Origin: Nitrosomonadales bacterium
GTDB taxonomy: Bacteria > Pseudomonadota > Gammaproteobacteria > Burkholderiales > Gallionellaceae
Length of the DNA stretch: 64,000 bases
Direction: 5' to 3'
NCBI GenBank assembly: GCA_016195965.1
Contig: JACPYR010000066.1
Span: 1 to 64,000, forward strand
In this document: piece after piece, positions 1-52,233 of the stretch
How positions within the stretch are numbered: position 1 is the stretch's first letter
Layout of the letters: each line of letters opens with the position of its first letter
Position numbers and translations under genes: made by a program
The notes under the pieces: generated by a model
Seen by the model: only the letters and a program-made list of their open reading frames with translations
Told to the model about the DNA's origin: nothing
Database searches by the model: none

Positions 1-744
1 AACCTGCTGCCCCTGGTGTTCAGCCAGCATCGCATTGTAGTAATCAAACACGGCTTCCGGTTCACCCTGCAGCGCAAGTTTACCCGCATTGAGCAGAATA
101 GCGCCATCACAAATGGATTGTATCGCCTGTTTGTCGTGCGAGACGATCAACAGCGTGGTGCCCTGCTTGCGGAATTCGCGGATGCGCTCGAAACTCTTGT
201 GCTGAAAATACGTGTCGCCCACCGACAACGCTTCATCGACGATCAGCACATCGGGACGGCGCGCCGTTGCCAGGCTAAAGGCCAGACGCATCTGCATGCC
301 GCTGGAATAAACGCGCACCGGCTGATCGAGGTAGTCGCCGATCTCGGCAAAGGCTTCGATCTCGGGCATCAAGCCGGAGATTTCCTCCACGTTCATCCCC
401 AGCAGTTGCCCGGCCATGTAGGCATTTTGCCGCCCGGTAAAATCGGGATGGAAACCCATGCCCAATTCGAGCAAGGCCGCCACGCGCCCGGTGATATTGA
501 CGCTGCCGGTGGTGGGCTGGGTGGTGCCGGTGATCATCTTGAGCAGCGTGCTTTTGCCCGCGCCGTTGATGCCGATGATGCCCACGGCCTCACCCGCCCG
601 GACCGTAAAATTGAGGTCCTGCAACACCCATTTGAGCCGGTGGCGGGGCTGGCTGAAAGGCACCAGCCATTCCGCCAAGCGCGACCAGCGCGTCGGATAC
701 TGCTTGTAGGCCTTGCCCAGATTGGTGATCGTGATCGTGCCCAT
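1..744 (-). CDS. ABC transporter ATP-binding protein, Wzt-like (exporter 1), partial
   Basis: This is the N-terminal 248 codons of an ABC ATPase; the gene runs off the window before its stop. It reads MGTITITNLGKAYKQYPTRW and then shows Walker A (GINGAGKST, about residue 57), a YSSGMQMRLAF signature and Walker B (VLIVDEAL) before an SVGD loop and the H-loop VSHD. This is the pattern of the polysaccharide-exporting KpsT/Wzt family, which powers an ABC-2 permease. Its natural partner, the permease ending at 3470, is 2.7 kb upstream, separated by toxin-antitoxin genes. The start ATG at 744 has no strong Shine-Dalgarno, unlike the copy of this start near 2246. Whether a C-terminal glycan-binding domain exists cannot be seen. 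Confidence 0.93.
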   Translation of the reverse strand, partial: MGTITITNLGKAYKQYPTRWSRLAEWLVPFSQPRHRLKWVLQDLNFTVRAGEAVGIIGINGAGKSTLLKMITGTTQPTTGSVNITGRVAALLELGMGFHPDFTGRQNAYMAGQLLGMNVEEISGLMPEIEAFAEIGDYLDQPVRVYSSGMQMRLAFSLATARRPDVLIVDEALSVGDTYFQHKSFERIREFRKQGTTLLIVSHDKQAIQSICDGAILLNAGKLALQGEPEAVFDYYNAMLAEHQGQQV

Positions 745-752
745 GTTCAGTT
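694..752 (-). repeat. Repeat copy A: 5' end of the Wzt-like gene (functional copy)
   Basis: This is the start of the intact ATPase gene with about 9 bases of leader (ACTGAACATGGG core on the minus strand). The same stretch recurs as gene fragments at 1461-1509, 2200-2248 and more distantly at 3441-3470. Copy A differs from B and C by six extra bases after the start (MGTITITNLGK against MGSITNLGK). Confidence 0.85.
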
Positions 753-894
753 AGTTGCTACTTAAATCGTGCTGGTGCAAGAAAGGATTGCACTGAATGA
801 TAGCAAACGAAACTCTTTTGAGGGCAAGGGATTTTTTGTGGCATGTAAGGGTTGAACACACGGAGGGCGATGGCGATCCCGCTAGAGCAGGATG

Positions 895-1128
895 CTACTT
901 ATCCAATGGTTCGTGATCAATCTCGTAAGCCTCAATCAGATCACCCACGACAGCGACCAGTGAGTAAAGCGGGTGTTTCCCATCGTCGCGAACAATATCC
1001 AGCAGACTGTTCAGCAAAATAGTCGCTTGTTCATAATCGGCTTCAGACTCAATATGTGCGATAGGCGCGACTGACTGGAGGGTTTGCCAAGCGGGAAGCA
1101 ATCTCTGATAGTCAATTACTGTATTCAT
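895..1128 (-). pseudogene. higA: HigA-type antitoxin, C-terminally truncated
   Basis: This 77-residue protein (MNTVIDYQRLL...) matches the N-terminal helical part of HigA antitoxins: SEADYEQATILLNSLLD, then HPLYSLVAVVGDLIEAYE. It stops at DHEPLDK. Family members continue for roughly 40-60 residues with a helix-turn-helix DNA-binding domain, which is absent here. The ATG at 1128 overlaps the toxin stop in an ATGA and has a GGAG about six bases upstream, so this start is preferred over the in-frame TTG at 1140. It probably can no longer bind its operator. Whether it still neutralises the toxin is unknown. Confidence 0.72.
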
Positions 1129-1415
1129 TTTTTTCTCCAATCGTTACGATCATACTCTGCATGAGTCATTACCTGACGAATATACATCCGTTGCTTGTCA
1201 TAATGAATGACCACTGCAATCCGGTACCTGTTTCCACCCACATCGAATAGTGTAAATCCGTCCACATAGTCAGCCGAACCGAAGGTTTCGCGCAATGCTG
1301 GAAAAGAAATCGCCGTGACTTGGCTCGCCTTGTGGAACCATTCATTTAGCATTGGTTTCGATTCCGGGTGAAGCTGCCAGAATTCTCTTAATGGTCTTTT
1401 TGAAATGATCCGCAT
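1125..1415 (-). CDS. higB: HigB-family mRNA interferase toxin
   Basis: The 96-residue product has the HigB_toxin layout: an N-terminal MRIISKRPLREFWQLHPES, a central GGNRYRIAVVIHYDKQRMYIRQVMTHAEYD, and a basic NDWRKK end. Family members fold like RelE and cleave mRNA on the ribosome. It appears full length and is translationally coupled to the truncated higA by an ATGA overlap (toxin first, the usual higBA order). It lies in the TA array separating the exporter 1 permease from its ATPase. A toxin without a complete antitoxin is odd, so it may be attenuated or neutralised by the remaining HigA fragment. Confidence 0.82.
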   Translation of the reverse strand: MRIISKRPLREFWQLHPESKPMLNEWFHKASQVTAISFPALRETFGSADYVDGFTLFDVGGNRYRIAVVIHYDKQRMYIRQVMTHAEYDRNDWRKK

Positions 1416-1460
1416 GCTTTTACATTTTACGCGAGGCTTCCAATATTACACAGCACAAGG

Positions 1461-1509
1461 ATATTGCTTGCAGGCCTTGCCCAGATTGGTGATCGAGCCC
1501 ATGTTCAGT
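1461..1509 (-). repeat. Repeat copy B: fragment of the Wzt-like gene 5' end
   Basis: These 49 bases are identical to 2200-2248 and homologous to the start of the ATPase gene at 744. Read on the minus strand they encode MGSITNLGKACKQY after an ACTGAAC leader, then run into a stop within a few codons. The stop codon of the broken vapC (1505-1507) lies inside the repeat leader, so the toxin gene and the repeat abut exactly. Confidence 0.88.
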
Positions 1510-1872
1510 GTCCCCAAGCAGCCAGCAACCCAAGCTGATTGGCTGCGGACAAGCGCTTGTCTTGCGTCCAGAGCAAGGTGCCTGGCGTCAAGCGCACACT
1601 GGTCAGCAAGTGTGCACAATATAGCCAACACCTAGTCCGTAAAGTTTGGATTTGCTGATGAACGATAGCACCTCTTCATCTGCCGCAGTCTTTGCACGGG
1701 GCATGTTGTTTAAGGTATCCAGAATAACGTCGCGTTGACGCAAGTTACCCAAAGCAAGTTCGCCGATTACAAAAGGGTGCGCAACCACCTGTCCGGTATT
1801 CAGCAGATTCACCAGGATGCTGTCGCCATGGCGGAGATGATCTATCCAAACCGATGTATCGACCAATATCAC
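1505..1872 (-). pseudogene. vapC: VapC PIN-domain toxin, frameshifted
   Basis: The frame from the ATG at 1872 reads MILVDTSVWIDHL..., HPFVIGELALGN and DEEVLSFISKSKLYGLGVGYI, then ends at VHTC. The rest of the family sequence (AHLLTS, LLWTQDKRLSAANQLG) continues in another frame to a TGA at 1507-1505. Adding one base after TATATTG restores TAT-ATT-GAT-GCA-CAC, the conserved YIDAHL of this VapC group. The lost base therefore falls in the codon of a catalytic aspartate of the PIN fold. Overlap with vapB (1869-1872) is an ATGA. A sequencing error is the alternative explanation. Confidence 0.82.
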
Positions 1873-2066
1873 ACCCGCCCCGATTGGCGTCTTGGTACAG
1901 GCTTCAGCGCTGGCTCGCTGCCGCCCAGCAATGCAAGCCGATGCGCACTTTCGCGCTCTATTAATGCTTTCAGCGCCTCTCTAACCAGCGCCGACTTTTC
2001 TGTCAGCCCGGTAAAGGCTTGCGCTTTGGCAACCAGTGCATCATCCAGCGCCAGTGTTGTTCTCAT
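1869..2066 (-). CDS. vapB: VapB-type antitoxin
   Basis: This 65-residue protein (MRTTLALDDALVAKAQAFTG, then EKSALVREALKALIERESA and GGSEPALKP) is a typical ribbon-helix-helix VapB. The N-terminal strand-helix-helix binds the operator, and the Pro-rich basic tail wraps the VapC toxin. The gene looks intact with a GGAG-like leader (AAGGAGAAATTGCCATG). It is coupled to the frameshifted vapC by a four-base overlap, so it is now an antitoxin whose cognate toxin is probably dead. Confidence 0.85.
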   Translation of the reverse strand: MRTTLALDDALVAKAQAFTGLTEKSALVREALKALIERESAHRLALLGGSEPALKPVPRRQSGRV

Positions 2067-2199
2067 GGCAATTTCTCCTTAATATTTGCTCACCGATAAT
2101 AGCATCAATCGATGACTCAAAAAATGCGGTTCATTGTCTATTCGAAAAGATAGCGTTAGTTGGTCCAGCTTAATTCGTGACGCAGCGCGTCCAAATTGT

Positions 2200-2248
2200 A
2201 TATTGCTTGCAGGCCTTGCCCAGATTGGTGATCGAGCCCATGTTCAGT
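2200..2248 (-). repeat. Repeat copy C: fragment of the Wzt-like gene 5' end
   Basis: This copy is identical over 49 bases to copy B. On the minus strand it carries GGAGCTACTGAACATGGGC, so this fragment keeps a good ribosome binding site and start codon. It encodes MGSITNLGKACKQY and then diverges, although a further ACGCGCTG block resembling the ATPase gene lies just beyond. It sits a few bases downstream of the stop of the intact vapC at 2256. Confidence 0.88.
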
Positions 2249-2255
2249 AGCTCCA

Positions 2256-2666
2256 TCAAGGGAGAGTTTCTTCCCAATCTTCCATTCTCAATCCCTTCAC
2301 GCGTTCGAATTCATCTGTGTTGTGGGTAATCAGTGTGGCATCGTGGGCGCGGGCGATGGCGGCGATCAGGGTGTCGTTCGGGCCGATAGGCTTGCCTTGA
2401 GTCAGCAGGTCGGCGTGAATTTGCCCATAGTGCTCAGCGCATTCATCATCAAAAGGCAGGCTTTGCAGCGGGGCGAAAAAGGCTTTGAGTAGTTGCAGAT
2501 TAGTTTCTACCCGTTGGCTGCGCCTCGCACCATACAGCAACTCCGCCTTGACCACGCTGCACATGGCTATGTCGGCGGGGGTATGTTGGCGAAAGTGTTG
2601 CAGGATAATCGGATGTTTTTCGTTGAGCAGGTGAATGCAGACGTTGGTGTCGAGCAGATAAATCAT
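2256..2666 (-). CDS. vapC: VapC-type PIN-domain ribonuclease toxin
   Basis: This is an intact PIN-domain toxin of 136 residues. MIYLLDTNVCIHLL supplies the first acidic residue, VKAELLYGA the second, and GPNDTLIAAIARAHDATLITHNTDEF the C-terminal Asp residues that coordinate the metal for RNA cleavage. The ATG at 2666 overlaps the antitoxin stop as ATGA. A longer in-frame extension upstream exists but would overlap the antitoxin heavily. This VapC belongs to a different subgroup from the broken one at 1505, so the array holds two unrelated vapBC modules. Confidence 0.9.
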   Translation of the reverse strand: MIYLLDTNVCIHLLNEKHPIILQHFRQHTPADIAMCSVVKAELLYGARRSQRVETNLQLLKAFFAPLQSLPFDDECAEHYGQIHADLLTQGKPIGPNDTLIAAIARAHDATLITHNTDEFERVKGLRMEDWEETLP

Positions 2667-2893
2667 TTGATTTTTAGTCGTTCTTCCAAAGGAGCAAACG
2701 CCGGACGCTCCAGCGGCGCACCTTCCCATTTTCCGAAGATGTCGAAATAGCCTTCCGGCCAAACCGCGCTGGCGCCTGCGTCGCGCTTGACTAGATCCGC
2801 CAAATAACGTGAAAGACTCAGGCCAGATTGCGTGGCACGGCGCTGTGCTTGCTGGGCAATCTCCTCAGGAACATAACAATGTAGTTGAGCCAT
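2663..2893 (-). CDS. Ribbon-helix-helix (CopG/VapB-like) antitoxin
   Basis: This 76-residue protein begins MAQLHCYVPEEIAQQAQRRA and continues GLSLSRYLADLVKRD, the RHH strand-helix-helix pattern. The tail (FGKWEGAPLERPAFAPLEERLKIK) resembles the toxin-wrapping segment of this family. The start ATG at 2893 is preceded by AAGGAGAATCTC, a good ribosome binding site. It is coupled to the intact vapC by an ATGA overlap and is very probably its antitoxin and autorepressor. Confidence 0.85.
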   Translation of the reverse strand: MAQLHCYVPEEIAQQAQRRATQSGLSLSRYLADLVKRDAGASAVWPEGYFDIFGKWEGAPLERPAFAPLEERLKIK

Positions 2894-2970
2894 GAGATTC
2901 TCCTTATGTATGTGCTATATGTGAATTTTAGCAAAATTAGGCGACAAGCACATCACTCCCTCGTGTAGGC

Positions 2971-3072
2971 TCACTGGTCATTGGACAAGGCTAGTACCGA
3001 GTAATCGAGATATTCGCGCATCCGATTCAAGTGGGCGAGTTGCTTCGCAATCAGGCGCAGATGTTCGGTCAC
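2971..3072 (-). pseudogene. HEPN-type toxin partner, 33-residue remnant
   Basis: A short frame begins with GTG overlapping the end of the nucleotidyltransferase remnant (GTGA). It reads VTEHLRLIAKQLAHLNRMREYLDYS and ends at ALSNDQ. The opening resembles the first helices of HEPN/DUF86-like proteins encoded next to minimal nucleotidyltransferases. The bulk of the domain, including any RX4HXY active site, is missing. It is therefore read as the stub of a deleted toxin. The family assignment rests on a short match and on the gene pairing. Confidence 0.5.
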
Positions 3073-3355
3073 AACTGGATCCCCTGGGCCTTCGCCAAAT
3101 TGTAGATGGGCTTTTCCTCGCCGGGCTCTTTTACTATCAGGTCAACGGGCAAATCCAGACTGTCCTCAAGCGCAACCTTGCAACGCAACGCTGCCATAAG
3201 GTATCGCGACGAGTAGTTTCGACATACAAATCCACATCGCCTCCGCGCCTTGCATCATCCACGCGCGAACCGAACAGCCAGACCCGCGCATCTGCGCCAA
3301 AATTCTGGCGCGCGGCGTTGCGGATCGTGTCTATTTGTGCGGGCGACAATCTCAT
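3069..3355 (-). pseudogene. Minimal nucleotidyltransferase (MNT antitoxin-like), frameshifted
   Basis: From ATG 3355 the frame gives MRLSPAQIDTIRNAARQNFG, then LFGSRVDDARRGGDVDLYVE, the Gly-Ser/Asp-x-Asp catalytic motif of MNT-fold nucleotidyltransferases. It leaves the family pattern near ARLRLRTV and stops. An overlapping frame continues with ALEDSLDLPVDLIVKEPGEE to a TGA at 3071-3069, the expected C-terminus. One frameshift around 3160-3190 explains both. It is followed by a HEPN stub, the usual partner, so this is a decayed MNT/HEPN TA module. Confidence 0.75.
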
Positions 3356-3440
3356 TTGACAGGGTTTCTTGGCATCAAGCTGCGCATTTTATATGAATTG
3401 ACCTGTGCAGAATCATGCAAGGCACCGCCAACGCGGAATT

Positions 3441-3470
3441 GGCCTCGCCCAGATTGGTGTTCGCGCCCAT
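3441..3470 (-). repeat. Repeat copy D: probable original start of the Wzt-like gene at the permease stop
   Basis: The permease 1 stop and an ATG overlap as TAATG. The codons after this ATG read MGANTNLGEAN, clearly related to MGTITITNLGKA of the ATPase gene at 744. This looks like the ancestral, tightly coupled permease-ATPase junction, now left as a roughly 30-base scar. Further downstream the frame has no resemblance to the ATPase. Confidence 0.7.
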
Positions 3471-31218: not shown

Positions 31219-33212
<1,994 letters not shown>

Positions 33213-33529
33213 GGCGCAAGGTATAGCAAAGACCGAGTAAAAGCAAGGGGCAACTCGCCCGCGCAAGCCACTCTTCGCCCTCAGACTGCGCTCAGGACGA
33301 GCCTTTCACGGCGGCTGCAAGATAAATTCGCCACTCCACAATTCCGTTTGATCTATCACGTCACGACACCAAACGGCTGCTGACTATTCTGTCGGTGGCA
33401 ACAAGGGACGACGTGCATGAAGAGTTGCGGATGGGGTTGGGGGCGCAGGATATGCAAGGTTGACCATCCTTTGCCTCCCAAGATGGATGAGGATTGCCCT
33501 CCCGCAAAATTAGATTTAATGTGGCCGCC
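33213..33529. other. Gap between thiC leader and antitoxin gene
   Basis: About 315 bases. The thiC promoter should lie at about 33215-33260. The rest shows no gene with family features; a 135-codon minus-strand frame across 33361-33768 is a shadow of the antitoxin gene and its leader. Nothing else is recognised. Confidence 0.55.
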
Positions 33530-35182: not shown

Positions 35183-37963
35183 TTAATGCGCCTCATCCCA
35201 ATTTCCGCCCTCGCCCAAGCCCACTTCCAGCGGCACTTTCAGCTCTGCGACATGGCACATCAGCTCGCGCAGCTTTTCCTTGACGTGCGATAGCTCGCCT
35301 TCCGGCACCTCCAGCACCAGTTCGTCGTGCACCTGCATGATCAGCTTGCTGTGCAATTTTTCCGTCTCCAGCCAGCGCTGCACCGCGATCATCGCGAGCT
35401 TGATCAGGTCGGCTGCGGTGCCTTGCATGGGCGCATTGATCGCGGCACGTTCCGCGCCTTGGCGACGCATGCCGTTGCTGCTGTTGATTTCCGGCAACCA
35501 TAGGCGGCGGCCAAACACTGTCTCGACATAGCCTTGCTGTTTGGCCTGTTCGCGGGTGCTGTCCATGTAGTTCTTCACGCCGGGGTAGCGCGCGAAGTAG
35601 CGGTCGATGTAGGCGGTGGCCGCGCCGCGTTCGATGCCGAGCTGCTTGGCCAGGCCGAATGCGGACATGCCATAGATCAGGCCGAAGTTGATGACCTTGG
35701 CGTAGCGGCGTTGTTCGCTGTCGACATCGGTGGGAGCCACCATGAAGATTTCGGCGGCGGTGGCGCGGTGGATGTCCTCGTTGTTGGCGAACGCGGTTAG
35801 CAGCCCGGCGTCGCCGGACAGGTGCGCCATGATGCGCAACTCGATCTGCGAGTAATCCGCCGACACGATGCGGCTGCCTTGGGGTGCTACGAACGCCTCG
35901 CGGATGCGTCGCCCTTCGGCGCTGCGCACCGGAATGTTCTGCAGATTGGGGTCGCTGGAGGCCAGCCGCCCGGTCACCGCGACCGCCTGCGAGTAGCTGG
36001 TATGCACGCGCCCGGTTTTTCTGTCCACCATCTGCGGCAGCTTGTCGGTGTAGGTGGATTTGAGTTTCGCCATGCCGCGATATTCCAGCAGGATTTTCGG
36101 CAGCGGGTAATCTAGCGCCAGTTCCTGCAACACCTCTTCGTCGGTGGACGGCGTGCCGCTCGGGGTTTTTTTCACCACCGGCAGCCCGAGCTTGTCGAAC
36201 AGGATTTCCTGTATCTGCTTGGGCGAATTCAGGTTGAACGGTTGCCCGGCGGCCTCGTGCGCCCTAGCCTCCAGCGCGAGCAGCTTCTCGCCCAGCTCGC
36301 GGCTCTGCACTTGCAGCAGCGCGCTGTCGAGCAGCACGCCGTTGCGTTCCATCGTGTACAGCACATGCATGCTGGGCAATTCGATGTCGCGATACACATG
36401 CAGCAATCCTTGTTGTGCTGCAATCTGCGGTGACAGGTTGTGGTGCAGCTGCAACGTGATGTCGGCGTCCTCGGCGGCATAGCGAGTCGCGGTATCCAGA
36501 TCGACCTGATCGAAGCAAATCTGCTTCGCACCCTTGCCGACCACCTCGGCATAGCTGATGGTCTTCACGTTGAGATGGCGCAACGCGAGGTTGTCCATGT
36601 CGTGCGGCTTGTGCGATTCCAGCACATAGGATTCCAGCAGCGTGTCCTCGGCTATGCCCTTTAAAGCGATGCCGTGATTGGCGAAGATATGCAGGTCGTA
36701 TTTGAGGTTCTGTCCAATCTTCTTGTGCCCGGCGCTCTCCAGCCAGTGCTTGAGCTTGTGCAGCGCCTGTTCGCGCCCGAGCTGATCCGGAGCACCGGGA
36801 TAGACATGAGCCAACGGCAGGTAGGCGGCGTGATGCGGCTCGATCGCGAACGACATGCCGACCAATTGCGCGTTCATCACGTCCAGACCGGTGGTTTCTG
36901 TGTCCACACACACCAGTTCGGCGGCGAGAATTTTTTCCAGCCATGCGTCGAGCTGGGTGTCTGTGAGGATGGTTTGGTAATTGCCAGAGGATTGCACGGC
37001 AACACCATCCCCTCCCCCTTGCAGGGGGAGGGTTAGGGAGGGGGTAGAGTCTGCGGGGTTTTTACCCCCATCCCTACCTTCCCCCTGCAAGGGGGAAGGC
37101 GCGTTGAGTTCACGCAGCCATGTTTTAAACTCGAACCTCTGGTACAGGCTGCGCAGCTGTTCGGTATCTTGCGGTGGCGGAACCAGCTCGTTGTATTGCT
37201 GCGGCAGTTCCACATCGCATTTTACGGTGATCAGGCGACGCGCCTGCGGCAGCCAGTCCTTCGCCTTGCGCAGGTTCTCGCCGACCACACCGCCGACTTC
37301 CCCGGCGTGCTGCATCAAATTGTCCAGCGTGCCGTATTGGGTCAGCCACTTCACCGCAGTCTTGGGGCCGACCTTTTCCACACCCGGAACGTTGTCCACC
37401 GTGTCGCCGACCAGGGTCAGGTAATCGACGATGCGCTCGGGCGGTACACCGAATTTGGCGTTCACCCCGGCGATATCCAGCGTCTCGTTGTTCATCGTGT
37501 TGATCAGCGTCACGCGCTCGTTCACCAGTTGCGCGAGGTCTTTGTCGCCGGTGGCGATCACGCAACGTATACCGTCCTGGCCCTGTTGCGCCAGCGTGCC
37601 TATCACGTCGTCGGCCTCCACGCCCTCCAGCATCATGATATTCCAGCCGGAAGCGGCGATGGCCTGATGCAGCGGCTCGATCTGGCGCGCCAGATCGTCC
37701 GGCATCGCGGGGCGATGCGCCTTGTATTCCGGATACCAGTCATCGCGAAAGGTTTTTCCTTTTGCGTCGAATACGCACAGGCTATAATCAGCCGGGTAGT
37801 CATGACGCAGCTTGCGCAACATGTTGAGCACGCCGTATATTGCGCCGGTGGGAAAGCCTTCGCGGTTGCGCAAATCCGGCATCGCATGGAACGCGCGGTA
37901 AAGGAACGACGAACCATCGACCAGCAACAAGGTTTTACTGAAACTCACTTCATCCGTTTTCAT
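35183..37963 (-). CDS. polA: DNA polymerase I
   Basis: The 926-residue enzyme has three domains. The 5'-nuclease (1-290) shows LLLVDGSSFLYRAFHAM, GVEADDVIGTLA and GDTVDNVPGVEKVGPKTA. The 3'-5' exonuclease begins around 345 (LVCVDTETTGLDVMNAQLVG). The polymerase carries RIVSADYSQIELRIMAHL, KVINFGLIYGMSAFGLA and MQVHDELVLEVPE. The linker at about residues 290-325 (NAPSPLQGEGRDGG..., PLQGGGDGVAVQ) is encoded by a palindromic repeat element inserted in frame. It is divergent from the LOG-family gene with only 40 bases between starts. Confidence 0.97.
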   Translation of the reverse strand: MKTDEVSFSKTLLLVDGSSFLYRAFHAMPDLRNREGFPTGAIYGVLNMLRKLRHDYPADYSLCVFDAKGKTFRDDWYPEYKAHRPAMPDDLARQIEPLHQAIAASGWNIMMLEGVEADDVIGTLAQQGQDGIRCVIATGDKDLAQLVNERVTLINTMNNETLDIAGVNAKFGVPPERIVDYLTLVGDTVDNVPGVEKVGPKTAVKWLTQYGTLDNLMQHAGEVGGVVGENLRKAKDWLPQARRLITVKCDVELPQQYNELVPPPQDTEQLRSLYQRFEFKTWLRELNAPSPLQGEGRDGGKNPADSTPSLTLPLQGGGDGVAVQSSGNYQTILTDTQLDAWLEKILAAELVCVDTETTGLDVMNAQLVGMSFAIEPHHAAYLPLAHVYPGAPDQLGREQALHKLKHWLESAGHKKIGQNLKYDLHIFANHGIALKGIAEDTLLESYVLESHKPHDMDNLALRHLNVKTISYAEVVGKGAKQICFDQVDLDTATRYAAEDADITLQLHHNLSPQIAAQQGLLHVYRDIELPSMHVLYTMERNGVLLDSALLQVQSRELGEKLLALEARAHEAAGQPFNLNSPKQIQEILFDKLGLPVVKKTPSGTPSTDEEVLQELALDYPLPKILLEYRGMAKLKSTYTDKLPQMVDRKTGRVHTSYSQAVAVTGRLASSDPNLQNIPVRSAEGRRIREAFVAPQGSRIVSADYSQIELRIMAHLSGDAGLLTAFANNEDIHRATAAEIFMVAPTDVDSEQRRYAKVINFGLIYGMSAFGLAKQLGIERGAATAYIDRYFARYPGVKNYMDSTREQAKQQGYVETVFGRRLWLPEINSSNGMRRQGAERAAINAPMQGTAADLIKLAMIAVQRWLETEKLHSKLIMQVHDELVLEVPEGELSHVKEKLRELMCHVAELKVPLEVGLGEGGNWDEAH
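37009..37099. repeat. Palindromic element inserted in frame in polA
   Basis: Two G/C-run arms (about 37009-37046 and 37064-37099) form a large inverted repeat; each arm itself contains a smaller palindrome (cccccttgcaggggg, ccccctgcaaggggg). An A/T-richer spacer gcggggtttttac lies between them. It adds roughly 30 residues to the linker between the nuclease and proofreading domains of PolA without breaking the frame. A related sequence occurs at 50709-50747 upstream of hemE. Confidence 0.85.
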
Positions 37964-49563: not shown

Positions 49564-50628
49564 TTAATGGTATTTTTTGCTCAGTTCATGCACCGCCGCA
49601 ACCAGCGCTGCCGCGTGCTCCGGGTTGGAGTGCTGGGAGATGCCATGACCGAGGTTGAACACATGACCGCTGCCGTAGCCGTAACTGCCGAGGATACGCT
49701 CGACTTCGGCGCGTATCGCGTCTGGCGAGGCGAACAGCACGGCGGGATCCATATTGCCCTGCAGCGCGACCTTGTGGCCGACTTTCTGGCGTGCGATGCC
49801 GATGTCCATCGTCCAATCCAGGCCCACTGCGTCGCAGCCGGTGTTGGCGATGCTCTCGATCCACAGCCCGCCACCCTTGGTGAACACGATCGAGGGTATC
49901 TTCACGCCGTCTTTTTCCTTGATCAGGCCCGCCACGATACGCTGGGTGTAAGCCAGCGAAAACTCGTGGAATGCCGCGTGCGACAACACCCCGCCCCACG
50001 AATCGAAAATCATCACCGCCTGCGCGCCCGCTTCGATCTGCGCATTCAGGTAATTGATCACCCCTTGTGTGGTCACTTCGAGAATGTGATGCATCAGTTT
50101 CGGCTCGTTGTACATCAGCGTCTTCACTTTGGCGTAGTCGTCGCTGCCGCCGCCTTCGACCATGTAGCAGGACAGCGTGAACGGGCTTCCGGAAAAACCG
50201 ATCAGCGGCACGCGACCATCCAGCGCCTTGCGTATCTGTGTCACCGCATCGGTGACGTAGCGCAAATCCTTGGCCACGTCAGGCACGCGCAGTGCCTTGA
50301 TCGCAGCGGCGTCATTCAAAGGGCGTTCGAATTTCGGGCCTTCGCCTTCGGAAAAATACAGGCCCAGACCCATCGCATCCGGCACGGTCAAAATGTCGGA
50401 GAACAGGATCGCGGCATCCAGCGGAAAGCGATCCAGCGGCTGCAGGGTCACTTCGGTGGCGTAATCCGGGCTTTTGCACAGGCCAAGGAAACTGCCCGCA
50501 CGCTTGCGCGTCTCGCGGTATTCGGGCAGGTAACGGCCAGCCTGGCGCATCATCCACAGCGGCGTATATTCGGTAGGTTGACGCAGCAGGGCGCGCAGGA
50601 AGGTGTCGTTTTTTAGTTTGAAGTTCAT
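49564..50628 (-). CDS. hemE: Uroporphyrinogen decarboxylase
   Basis: 354 residues. The N-terminal signature [19 protein letters not shown] holds the substrate-binding Arg residues. [22 protein letters not shown] holds the catalytic Asp, followed by the [19 protein letters not shown] loop and [15 protein letters not shown] with the conserved His. It converts uroporphyrinogen III to coproporphyrinogen III in heme synthesis. Length and context (gltBD upstream, priA downstream) are standard for betaproteobacteria. Confidence 0.97.
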
Positions 50629-50708
50629 GATTCTCTCTTTTTAGTTAAATTCTAAAGCCGCTTAACGAGCATGGCAATTATGCCAGCCCCAATGATGAAA
50701 CATGTCAC

Positions 50709-50747
50709 GCCCGTTTCTCCCACCCCAACCCTCCCCCGCAGGGAGAA
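50709..50747. repeat. G/C-run palindromic repeat between gltD and hemE
   Basis: The stretch around ttctcccaccccaaccctc...gcagggagaaggg has a 7-bp stem (ttctccc / gggagaa). Its aaccctccccc-gc-aggg core matches the arms of the element inside polA. It sits in the hemE upstream region. Confidence 0.6.
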
Positions 50748-50778
50748 GGGACTAACGAATCGCTTCGCGAGTTTTACG

Positions 50779-52233
50779 TTAACGAGGCAATACGGAACTA
50801 CCCATCAAATACTCATCTACTGCACGTGCACACTGCCGGCCTTCGCGTATCGCCCACACCACCAGCGATTGCCCGCGACGCATGTCGCCTGCCGCGAATA
50901 CCTTGTCTTTGCTGGTACGGTAATTATCCGTATCGGCCCTGGTGTTGCCGCGACCATCCTTTTCCACACCAAAGGCATCCAGCACCTTCTGCTCCGGGCT
51001 GACGAAGCCCATTGCCAGAAAAACCAGATCGGCTTTCAGCTCGAATTCACTGCCCGCGATCTCGCTCATCTTGCCATCTTTCCATTCCACGCGCACTGCG
51101 CGCAGTTTTTCAACCTTGCCATTGCTACCGGTGAATTCCTTGGTGGCAATCGCCCAATCCCGCGAACAACCCTCTTCATGCGAACTGGAAGTACGCAGCT
51201 TCAGCGGCCAGTTTGGCCACACCAGAGATTTGTTTTCCTGCTCCGGCGGACGCGGCATCACTTCAAATTGCGTCACAGACAAAGCGCCATGGCGATTCGA
51301 CGTACCCACACAATCGGAGCCGGTATCGCCGCCGCCGATCACGACGACATGCTTGCCGGAGGCCGAGATCGGATTCTTGCCATCCCCGGCAACTTCTTTA
51401 TTTTGCGGGATCAGGAATTCCAGCGCATAGTGCACACCCTTCAGCCCGCGTCCCGGAACCGGCAGGTCGCGCGGCATTTCCGCGCCGCCGGCCAATATTA
51501 CCGCATCATATTTTTTCAGCAATTCGTCCGGGCTGATTGTTTTCGTGGCATCGTTTGTCGTACCTTTAACCGGCGCTTCCTTGCCGATGAAGGTGTTGGT
51601 CTGGAATTTCACGCCTTCTGCCGCCAACTGCGCCATGCGCCAATCGATCAGGCGTTTGTCGAGCTTGAAGTCCGGAATTCCGTAGCGCATCAAACCGCCG
51701 ATGCGGCTATTCTTCTCGAACACCGTGACGCTGTGCCCGGCACGCGCGAGTTGCTGCGCGGCAGCCATACCAGCGGGGCCCGAGCCGACCACGGCTACTT
51801 TTTTGCCTGTCTTCTTTGCAGCCGGCTGCGGCACAACCCAACCGTTCTCGCCGCCCTTGTCAATGATGGCATGCTCGATAGACTTGATGCCCACCGCGTC
51901 ATTGTTGATGTTCAGCGTGCAGGCAGCCTCGCATGGCGCGGGGCAGATGCGTCCGGTAATCTCCGGAAAGTTATTGGTGGAATGCAACACGTCCAGCGCC
52001 TCGCGCCAGTTGCCGCGATATACCAGGTCGTTCCAGTCCGGGATGATGTTGTTGACCGGGCAGCCGCTGGTGCAGAACGGAATGCCGCAGTCCATGCAGC
52101 GCGCGCCCTGTGTCTTGGCCTGATCGTCGTTCAGATGCGCGACGAACTCCTTGTAATGCTTCAGGCGTTTTTCAACGGGCGTATAGCCCTCGCTGATGCG
52201 CTCGAACTCCATGAATCCGGTTGGCTTGCCCAT
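50779..52233 (-). CDS. gltD: Glutamate synthase [NADPH] small subunit
   Basis: 484 residues. The N-terminal Fe-S Cys clusters are [17 protein letters not shown] and [14 protein letters not shown]. The FAD site is [19 protein letters not shown] and the NADPH site [17 protein letters not shown]. The C-terminal FAD contact is [18 protein letters not shown]. It passes electrons from NADPH to GltB. The gltB stop and gltD start overlap as TAATG. Confidence 0.97.

Follow-up and report, generated by a model that had tools for sequence, protein, structure and literature searches.

The stretch analyzed here (the window) comprises 64,000 nucleotides of a metagenome-assembled genome (MAG) of the Gallionellaceae (GCA_016195965.1, contig JACPYR010000066.1; 95 contigs, 2.73 Mb, 82.9% complete). 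It contains an intact polA gene, encoding DNA polymerase I (PolA), with an inverted repeat inside its reading frame; the nearest named relatives of this PolA belong to Gallionella and Gallionellales MAGs. The repeat consists of two hairpin-plus-tail units in opposite orientation (Table 1). Measured as arms (37010-37046 and 37063-37099), it has 37 nt on each side, 84% complementarity, and 16 nt in between. As single-stranded DNA, the minus strand of 37009-37099 was predicted to fold with -35.8 kcal/mol, compared with a shuffle mean of -19.65 (z, -6.4), and none of 200 shuffles was as good. In the polA frame, the element codes for PSPLQGEGRDGGKNPADSTPSLTLPLQGGG (codons 289 to 318), which connect the 5'-nuclease region to the 3'-5' exonuclease region; in the best match to the E. 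coli Klenow structure, PolA aligns from residue 325 onward. An earlier, sequence-only reading had proposed an in-frame repeat of ~90 bases and a contribution of ~30 residues to the linker between the 5'-nuclease and proofreading domains. Both proposals were borne out, the one by the complementary arms, the fold energy, and the uninterrupted open reading frame (ORF), the other by the codon positions and the start of the Klenow match.

Table 1. Positions of polA, its inserted element, and a related intergenic copy within the window
Feature	Position	Strand	Basis
polA, DNA polymerase I, 926 aa, intact	35183..37963	minus	ORF; NCBIfam PRK05755, 1199 bits (cut-off 720); PDB Klenow, E 1e-232
Inverted pair of hairpin-plus-tail (triplex-motif-like) units; codes PolA residues 289-318	37010..37099	.	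Inverted-repeat search, ORF, fold energy
Unit 1: hairpin CCCTCCCCC-TTGCA-GGGGGAGGG, loop TTA (type A), purine tail GGGAGGGGG; 1 mismatch to TM_ECO pattern	37010..37044	plus	
Spacer separating units 1 and 2	37045..37064	.	Inverted-repeat search
Unit 2: hairpin CCTTCCCCC-TTGCA-GGGGGAAGG, tail GGATGGGGG; 4 mismatches to TM_ECO pattern	37065..37099	minus	
Intergenic relative of the unit, between GltD-like ORF and hemE	50719..50750	minus	Query match; hairpin 50729-50749

Over the 91 bases from 37009, two of the six frames are free of stops, and one of these is the polA frame. An AlphaFold2 model (28-row alignment) gave PolA a mean predicted local distance difference test (pLDDT) score of 82.5, with values below 50 for residues 289 to 322, which are predicted to be disordered. 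Third-position identity in residues 301 to 330 versus the whole of polA was 0.87 versus 0.69 against relative G020 but 0.67 versus 0.69 against G013, which gives no consistent sign of faster or slower drift within the element. We interpret the element as an inverted pair of dispersed G/C-rich repeats, of the intrastrand triplex motif TM_ECO or a close relative, that sits in frame in the PolA linker, is translated into ~30 Pro/Gly-rich residues, and is tolerated (probability, roughly 0.87). Read directly from the sequence are the element, its dispersed copies, its in-frame position, the predicted disorder, the recurrence in PolA and MutS, and the empty sites in guaA and mutS. In this way the earlier proposal of an in-frame palindromic repeat forming part of DNA polymerase I found support. 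From the intact gene we infer that the segment is translated without harm and that the enzyme functions normally.

Copies of the element are dispersed through the source genome. A 92-base query taken from polA matched one further full copy, 82% identical and located on contig C4 outside any recognised gene, plus several half copies. A covariance-model alignment of the hairpin was ragged and was left unused, and a pattern search served in its place. This search found 33 sites in the source genome and none with a reversed-pattern control. Among 61 genomes of the same genus, at least one site was present in 57 (range, 0 to 173 per genome), and the control was non-zero in 5 (maximum, 2). Among 200 genomes of the order, 79 had one or more sites (in 50 of 108 genera; maximum, 486 sites), with the control non-zero in 19 (maximum, 3), so that genomes of the order with one or two sites mean little. 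The sequence-only reading had also pointed to a related copy near hemE; it is real and lies between genes, flanked by ORFs at 49564-50628 and 50779-52233, which we take to be HemE and GltD-like, respectively. This copy is part of a longer composite, shared partly with copies on contigs C44, C25, and C78. The composite at 50640-50830 (with loci L022, L024, and L026) includes an inverted repeat around CGGGCRTG/CATGCCCG.

When the 33 sites were aligned, the hairpin CCCTCTCCC-loop-GGGAGAGGG emerged, and most sites continue with a purine tail similar to GGGTGAGGG. The published TM_ECO pattern, as given by Holder et al. 2015 (PMC4666352), is CCCTCNCCC N3-6 GGGNGAGGG N3 GGGNGAGGG, with one mismatched position allowed. 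With at most 0, 1, 2, and 3 mismatches, this pattern fitted 6, 11, 18, and 26 of the 33 source-genome sites, and 23, 32, 37, and 40 of 43 sites in the relative G026 (5 contigs, 99% complete). When the flanks were shuffled with the hairpin kept (n = 200), fits with at most 2 mismatches had a mean of 2.4 (maximum, 7) in the source genome and of 5.2 (maximum, 12) in G026. The observed fits lie far above these values, and therefore the purine tail belongs to the unit. Judged by sequence, the unit in polA resembles TM_ECO and may be that motif or a close relative of it. Hoyne et al. 2000 are said to have worked on the intrastrand triplex motif earlier.

Common to TM_ECO and the unit described here are 9-nt hairpin stems, a short second loop, a purine third strand, the TTA loop type, inverted pairs, and copy numbers that are patchy among relatives. 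In E. coli MG1655, TM_ECO has 23 copies, which are reported as always intergenic, five cases being inverted pairs (PMC4666352). In contrast, about half of the Gallionella-type copies in the two genomes read in detail were read by us as in frame in genes, and many of the source-genome copies are degenerate relative to the published pattern. An identical hairpin is found in the palindromic repeat CCCTCTCCCXX(X)GGGAGAGGG of Enterobacter sp. 638, with ~100 copies (PMC2869309). That repeat differs in its placement, often at the 3' ends of genes, where it is presumed to act as a transcription terminator, and the passages of that paper dealing with it mention no coding use.

In the source genome, 18 of the 33 sites read in frame, in 15 genes, whereas 3 are ambiguous at gene ends (TsaE, an AddB-like protein, and one ORF) and 12 lie outside genes. 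By this reading, further copies within ORFs, for which a genome search had been suggested, do exist. The 15 genes are polA (2 sites), mutL, mutS (2), mfd (2), guaA, valS, leuS, kdsB, murU, and those for an SDR, a TolC-type protein, a FadB-like protein, a restriction-type helicase, a TPS-domain protein, and a VWA-domain protein; in the TPS- and VWA-domain cases, only the long ORF supports the assignment, because the profile stops short of the insert. The two halves of mfd lie on contigs C50 (1-1100) and C75 (1-2435), both of which end in the repeat, and the split is probably an assembly break at the element. In G026, 21 of 45 sites read in frame, in 17 genes: sucB, an RlmN-like gene, recQ, a CusA/CzcA pump gene, tilS (2), comEC, mutL, miaA, addA (2; the best profile stretch does not extend to the insert), rlmI, bioA, prmC, hpnE, purL (2), earP, pheT, and polA (2). 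By our own reading of the sequences, then, about half of the copies in these two Gallionella-type genomes would be in frame in genes, many of them essential.

Further genomes had in-frame copies in bioF, priA, gluQ, recQ, a NuoD-like hydrogenase gene, and ybbP. Among the candidates from these genomes, L232, L233, L234, L238, and L248 were discarded as spurious or upstream of the start, an NCBIfam match at 1e-20 was not found for L231, L240, L243, and L263, and the profile scan left out two histidine kinases (L236 and L242). Taking the source genome and G026 together, 41 of 70 sites can be read without a stop in 5 or more of the 6 frames over ~52 nt, versus 34% of random 52-mers from the window. 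Since frames are mostly open across the sites, the unit is easy to read through.

The PolA linker was surveyed in the 61 same-genus genomes, six of which (G014, G025, G029, G033, G034, and G066) gave no usable linker. For the linker counts, G077 (linker cut by a contig end, no hairpin visible) was dropped and G018 (cut, hairpin visible) was retained. The second polA gene of G028 was excluded from the linker and copy-number test and included in the tree, from which G018 was excluded. The hairpin, with at most 2 mismatches, was present in the linker in 26 of 54 genomes. Linker length, measured in 53 genomes, ranged from 14 to 79 residues. Genomes with the PolA insert had a median of 39.5 sites genome-wide, versus 6.5 in those without it (one-sided Mann-Whitney test, p = 7e-6). 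Moreover, the insert was absent in all 15 genomes with at most 9 sites and present in 26 of the 39 with at least 12. On a PolA tree computed minus the linker (54 genus rows, 25 with the insert), the label underwent at least 10 changes, gains and losses pooled, 9 of them forced by well-supported branches. Across 8 independent pairs that differ in copy number, the presence of the insert followed copy number in 5.7 on average and ran against it in 0. None of 34 more distant PolA loci matched the hairpin, though two of the genomes concerned, G050 (58 sites) and G059 (19), are rich in sites. The paired-insert layout of the source PolA is common to G020, G013, G018, and G068, and given this similar layout the insert may be inherited within the group. 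In one relative, the MAG G028, there are two distinct PolA genes (L050 and L063; 75% and ~82% identical to the query), only one of which has the hairpin insert, owing to either contamination or a second copy.

Empty sites were found in guaA and mutS. In the source genome, the GuaA insert sits between FEELRNTRFE-type and WYD-type sequence, and it is absent in all 29 relatives aligned, two of which (L289 and L292) carry a different short insertion. MutS has two recurrent in-frame insertion sites, A and B, filled by at least three kinds of repeat (L316, L325, L326, L328, L329, and L342). Among 17 same-genus rows, site A holds a triplex-type hairpin in 5 (the source genome, G020, G008, G017, and G016), is empty in 10, and in the remaining rows contains a 48-nt palindrome (G010) or an unclassified insert (G001). 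Site B has inserts in 9 of the 17 rows, among them the 48-nt palindrome in G009 and G012, a hairpin in G008, and others in G007, G020, and G021. Also among these site B inserts are segments in G009, G013, G016, and G017 that, by peptide, are presumably of the CCTGAGCTTGTCGAAGG kind.

The 48-nt palindrome (TAGCCATTYGACTA..stem..CAAGTCGCTGGTTA) also interrupts the first element in several PolA linkers, in both orientations. There it was recognized by DNA in G016, G020, G010, G027, and the named loci L078 and L086, and by peptide in G082 and G078; the PolA-linker loci listed with it are L060, L064, L066, L036, L078, and L086. Genome-wide, it occurs in 52 of the 61 same-genus genomes (control, 0 of 61), at times head to tail. 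In 43 hand-picked units with a proposed 18-pair stem, whose inner part appears to covary, 94.1% of cells were paired, compared with 86.2 in shuffles, and 69 cells were changed on both sides, compared with 22.6, which exceeded every shuffle. Two other counts did not exceed those of shuffles: double changes were seen in 6 pairs, a number reached by 105 of 500 shuffles, and further pair types numbered 15, reached by 343 of 500. Rfam gave no family match at five loci with this palindrome. A further small palindrome, TCCACA-stem-TAGYGGA, was seen in the PolA linkers L083, L084, and L120; the inner stem of L120 is not the same as that of L083/L084.

In the mechanism that we propose, a hairpin CCCTCNCCC-loop-GGGNGAGGG with the purine tail GGGNGAGGG would be copied around the genome, polA having come to hold an inverted pair. 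New copies would arise repeatedly in the Gallionellaceae and be kept where they land in a flexible loop or domain linker and cause neither a stop nor a frameshift. With retention limited to loops and linkers with an open frame, the same permissive places (the PolA linker, two MutS spots, and a RecQ loop) would be filled repeatedly, and from one species to the next they would hold another copy, another repeat family, or nothing. Spread might proceed by replication stalling and template switching, or by gene conversion, at the hairpin or triplex, without a transposase. We favor such spread because Holder et al. tie the motif to local instability, with no association to mobile elements reported in the accessible text (PMC4666352), and because no transposase was found beside it.

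Several observations weigh against our interpretation. Thirteen of the 39 genomes with at least 12 sites have no polA insert, including G062 (173 sites) and G023 (159), and the independent-pairs test is borderline (median p, 0.03; range, 0.016 to 0.063). As every measured same-genus linker has some length, polA itself offers no clean empty site. An alignment of PolA from close relatives had been suggested to see whether the linker insert is missing; the hairpin label does vary (26 of 54), but no such empty site was seen. Target-site duplications at guaA and mutS were not evident by eye, and no mobility gene was identified beside the element. The in-frame classification was our reading of stop-free ORFs and profile matches, made without a gene caller. 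Finally, unit 2 of polA deviates from TM_ECO at 4 positions, and only 11 of the 33 source-genome sites are within 1 mismatch.

One rival reading is an old conserved linker, in which the Pro/Gly-rich peptide would be ancestral to PolA and the palindrome a by-product of its codons. A linker of some kind (14 to 79 residues) is indeed present in every measured same-genus PolA, and the near-identical paired insert in the source genome, G013, G018, G020, and G068 speaks for inheritance of some copies. However, the same DNA recurs between genes and within unrelated genes, the hairpin is found in 0 of 34 distant PolA loci, and the linkers of relatives hold other repeat families, frames, and orientations. 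An old protein feature would have left all relatives with the same linker and divergent DNA; instead, same-genus linkers hold different repeat families or none. The dispersed copies and the at least 10 changes on the tree led us to reject an old linker, which we regard as very improbable. An assembly or binning artefact is less credible still, to the point of being nearly negligible: although the MAG is a draft and contigs C50 and C75 end at the element within mfd, a single contig spans polA and preserves its frame, and in-frame inserts occur in many independent assemblies, including the 5-contig, 99% complete G026.

Size, hairpin form, and inverted pairing of the units are like those of repetitive extragenic palindromic (REP) elements and bacterial interspersed mosaic elements (BIMEs), and two places in the genome (contigs C63 and C16) match Y1_Tnp (PF01797), as would be expected if the element were a REP mobilized by a REP-associated tyrosine transposase (RAYT, TnpA-REP). 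Yet beside the stem, in REP orientation, GTAG occurs in 0 and CGTC in 1 of the 33 source-genome sites, and we rejected a REP of the GTAG/CGTC type on these counts. The list of hairpin sites has none on C63, and on C16 the Y1_Tnp gene is ~7 kb away from the closest one; the loci around both genes gave no hairpin match with a pattern narrower than that of the genome-wide search. Mobilization by a RAYT is without support, as the repeats do not flank the Y1_Tnp genes at C63 or C16, and seems improbable to us, although a RAYT could be missing from an assembly that is 82.9% complete. Selection for the insert, which would modulate PolA (or MutS, MutL, Mfd, RecQ, PriA, or AddA) and hence the mutation rate, or act as a brake in mRNA or DNA, draws on the share of replication and repair genes: 8 of 32 gene instances in the source genome (polA, mutL, mutS, and mfd) and G026 (polA, recQ, mutL, and addA), or 6 of 30 without polA. 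The corresponding binomial p without polA is 0.003 at a 5% background and 0.07 at 10%, both fractions being assumed. MutS is struck at two places in many species, and the same bias is reported for unrelated REPs by Di Nocera et al. (PMC3733652). Against this, the recognizable genes were picked by us, guaA, leuS, valS, kdsB, purL, pheT, and bioA are struck too, long multi-domain proteins offer more loops, and the inserts lie in predicted linkers or profile gaps. With an assumed background and more loops in large proteins, the excess of repair genes is a lead only, and we consider selection unlikely.

A still broader idea, which we put forward as a speculation with little chance of proving right, is that unrelated palindromes in distant phyla converge on replication and repair genes because they are retained there, the in-frame segments of PolA, MutS, MutL, Mfd, RecQ, PriA, and AddA being evolvable dials of repair fidelity. 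The repeats would be the triplex motifs and the 48-nt palindrome in the Gallionellaceae, the GTAG/CGTC REPs, and the Rickettsia palindromic elements (RPEs) in Rickettsia. The inserts would be easily gained and lost, and the driving motif might itself stall replication.

RPEs were reportedly described by Ogata et al. 2000, 2002. They are in-frame palindromes in conserved housekeeping genes of Rickettsia (PMC2229807, PMC10969869). The likeness lies in a palindrome in frame within conserved housekeeping genes that the protein tolerates, here in 15 genes of the source genome and 17 of G026. RPEs differ in their length of 105 to 150 bp and their obligate intracellular hosts, whereas the Gallionellaceae units are ~35 nt long and rich in G/C runs; the comparison with Rickettsia, made already in the sequence-only reading, holds as a likeness of behavior. 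Intragenic GTAG/CGTC REPs are described from several species, many of them in replication and repair genes including that of DNA polymerase I (Di Nocera et al. 2013, PMC3733652). They share with the present case the in-frame palindrome, the occurrence in DNA polymerase I and tRNA synthetases, the suggested location in linkers or loops, and the frequency of dimers, and are set apart by their defining tags, which are absent in the Gallionellaceae family (0 of 33 and 1 of 33). Gallionella has no occurrence in PMC3733652. The in-frame case in PolA works like RPEs and intragenic REPs, yet belongs to a different sequence family. The portions consulted of the open-licence literature contain no report of in-frame triplex motifs in genes or of such inserts in Gallionella.

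The element joins two literatures, that on an intergenic triplex repeat tied to genome instability and that on the in-frame coding palindromes of intracellular Rickettsia. Its copies mark out, in PolA, MutS, RecQ, and aminoacyl-tRNA synthetases, a naturally occurring set of positions that tolerate insertions, they are a source of new disordered peptide segments, and they offer a way to ask whether repair genes are struck beyond chance. For annotation, they serve as a warning that Pro/Gly-rich insert peptides of such kind are repeat DNA.

Elsewhere in the window, a thiamine pyrophosphate (TPP) riboswitch on the minus strand at 33111-33214 (58.7 bits) was the sole Rfam match. At 697-3470, direct repeats of 30 to 56 nt are spaced 739, 764, and 1229 nt apart and perhaps belong to a gene with repeated domains.

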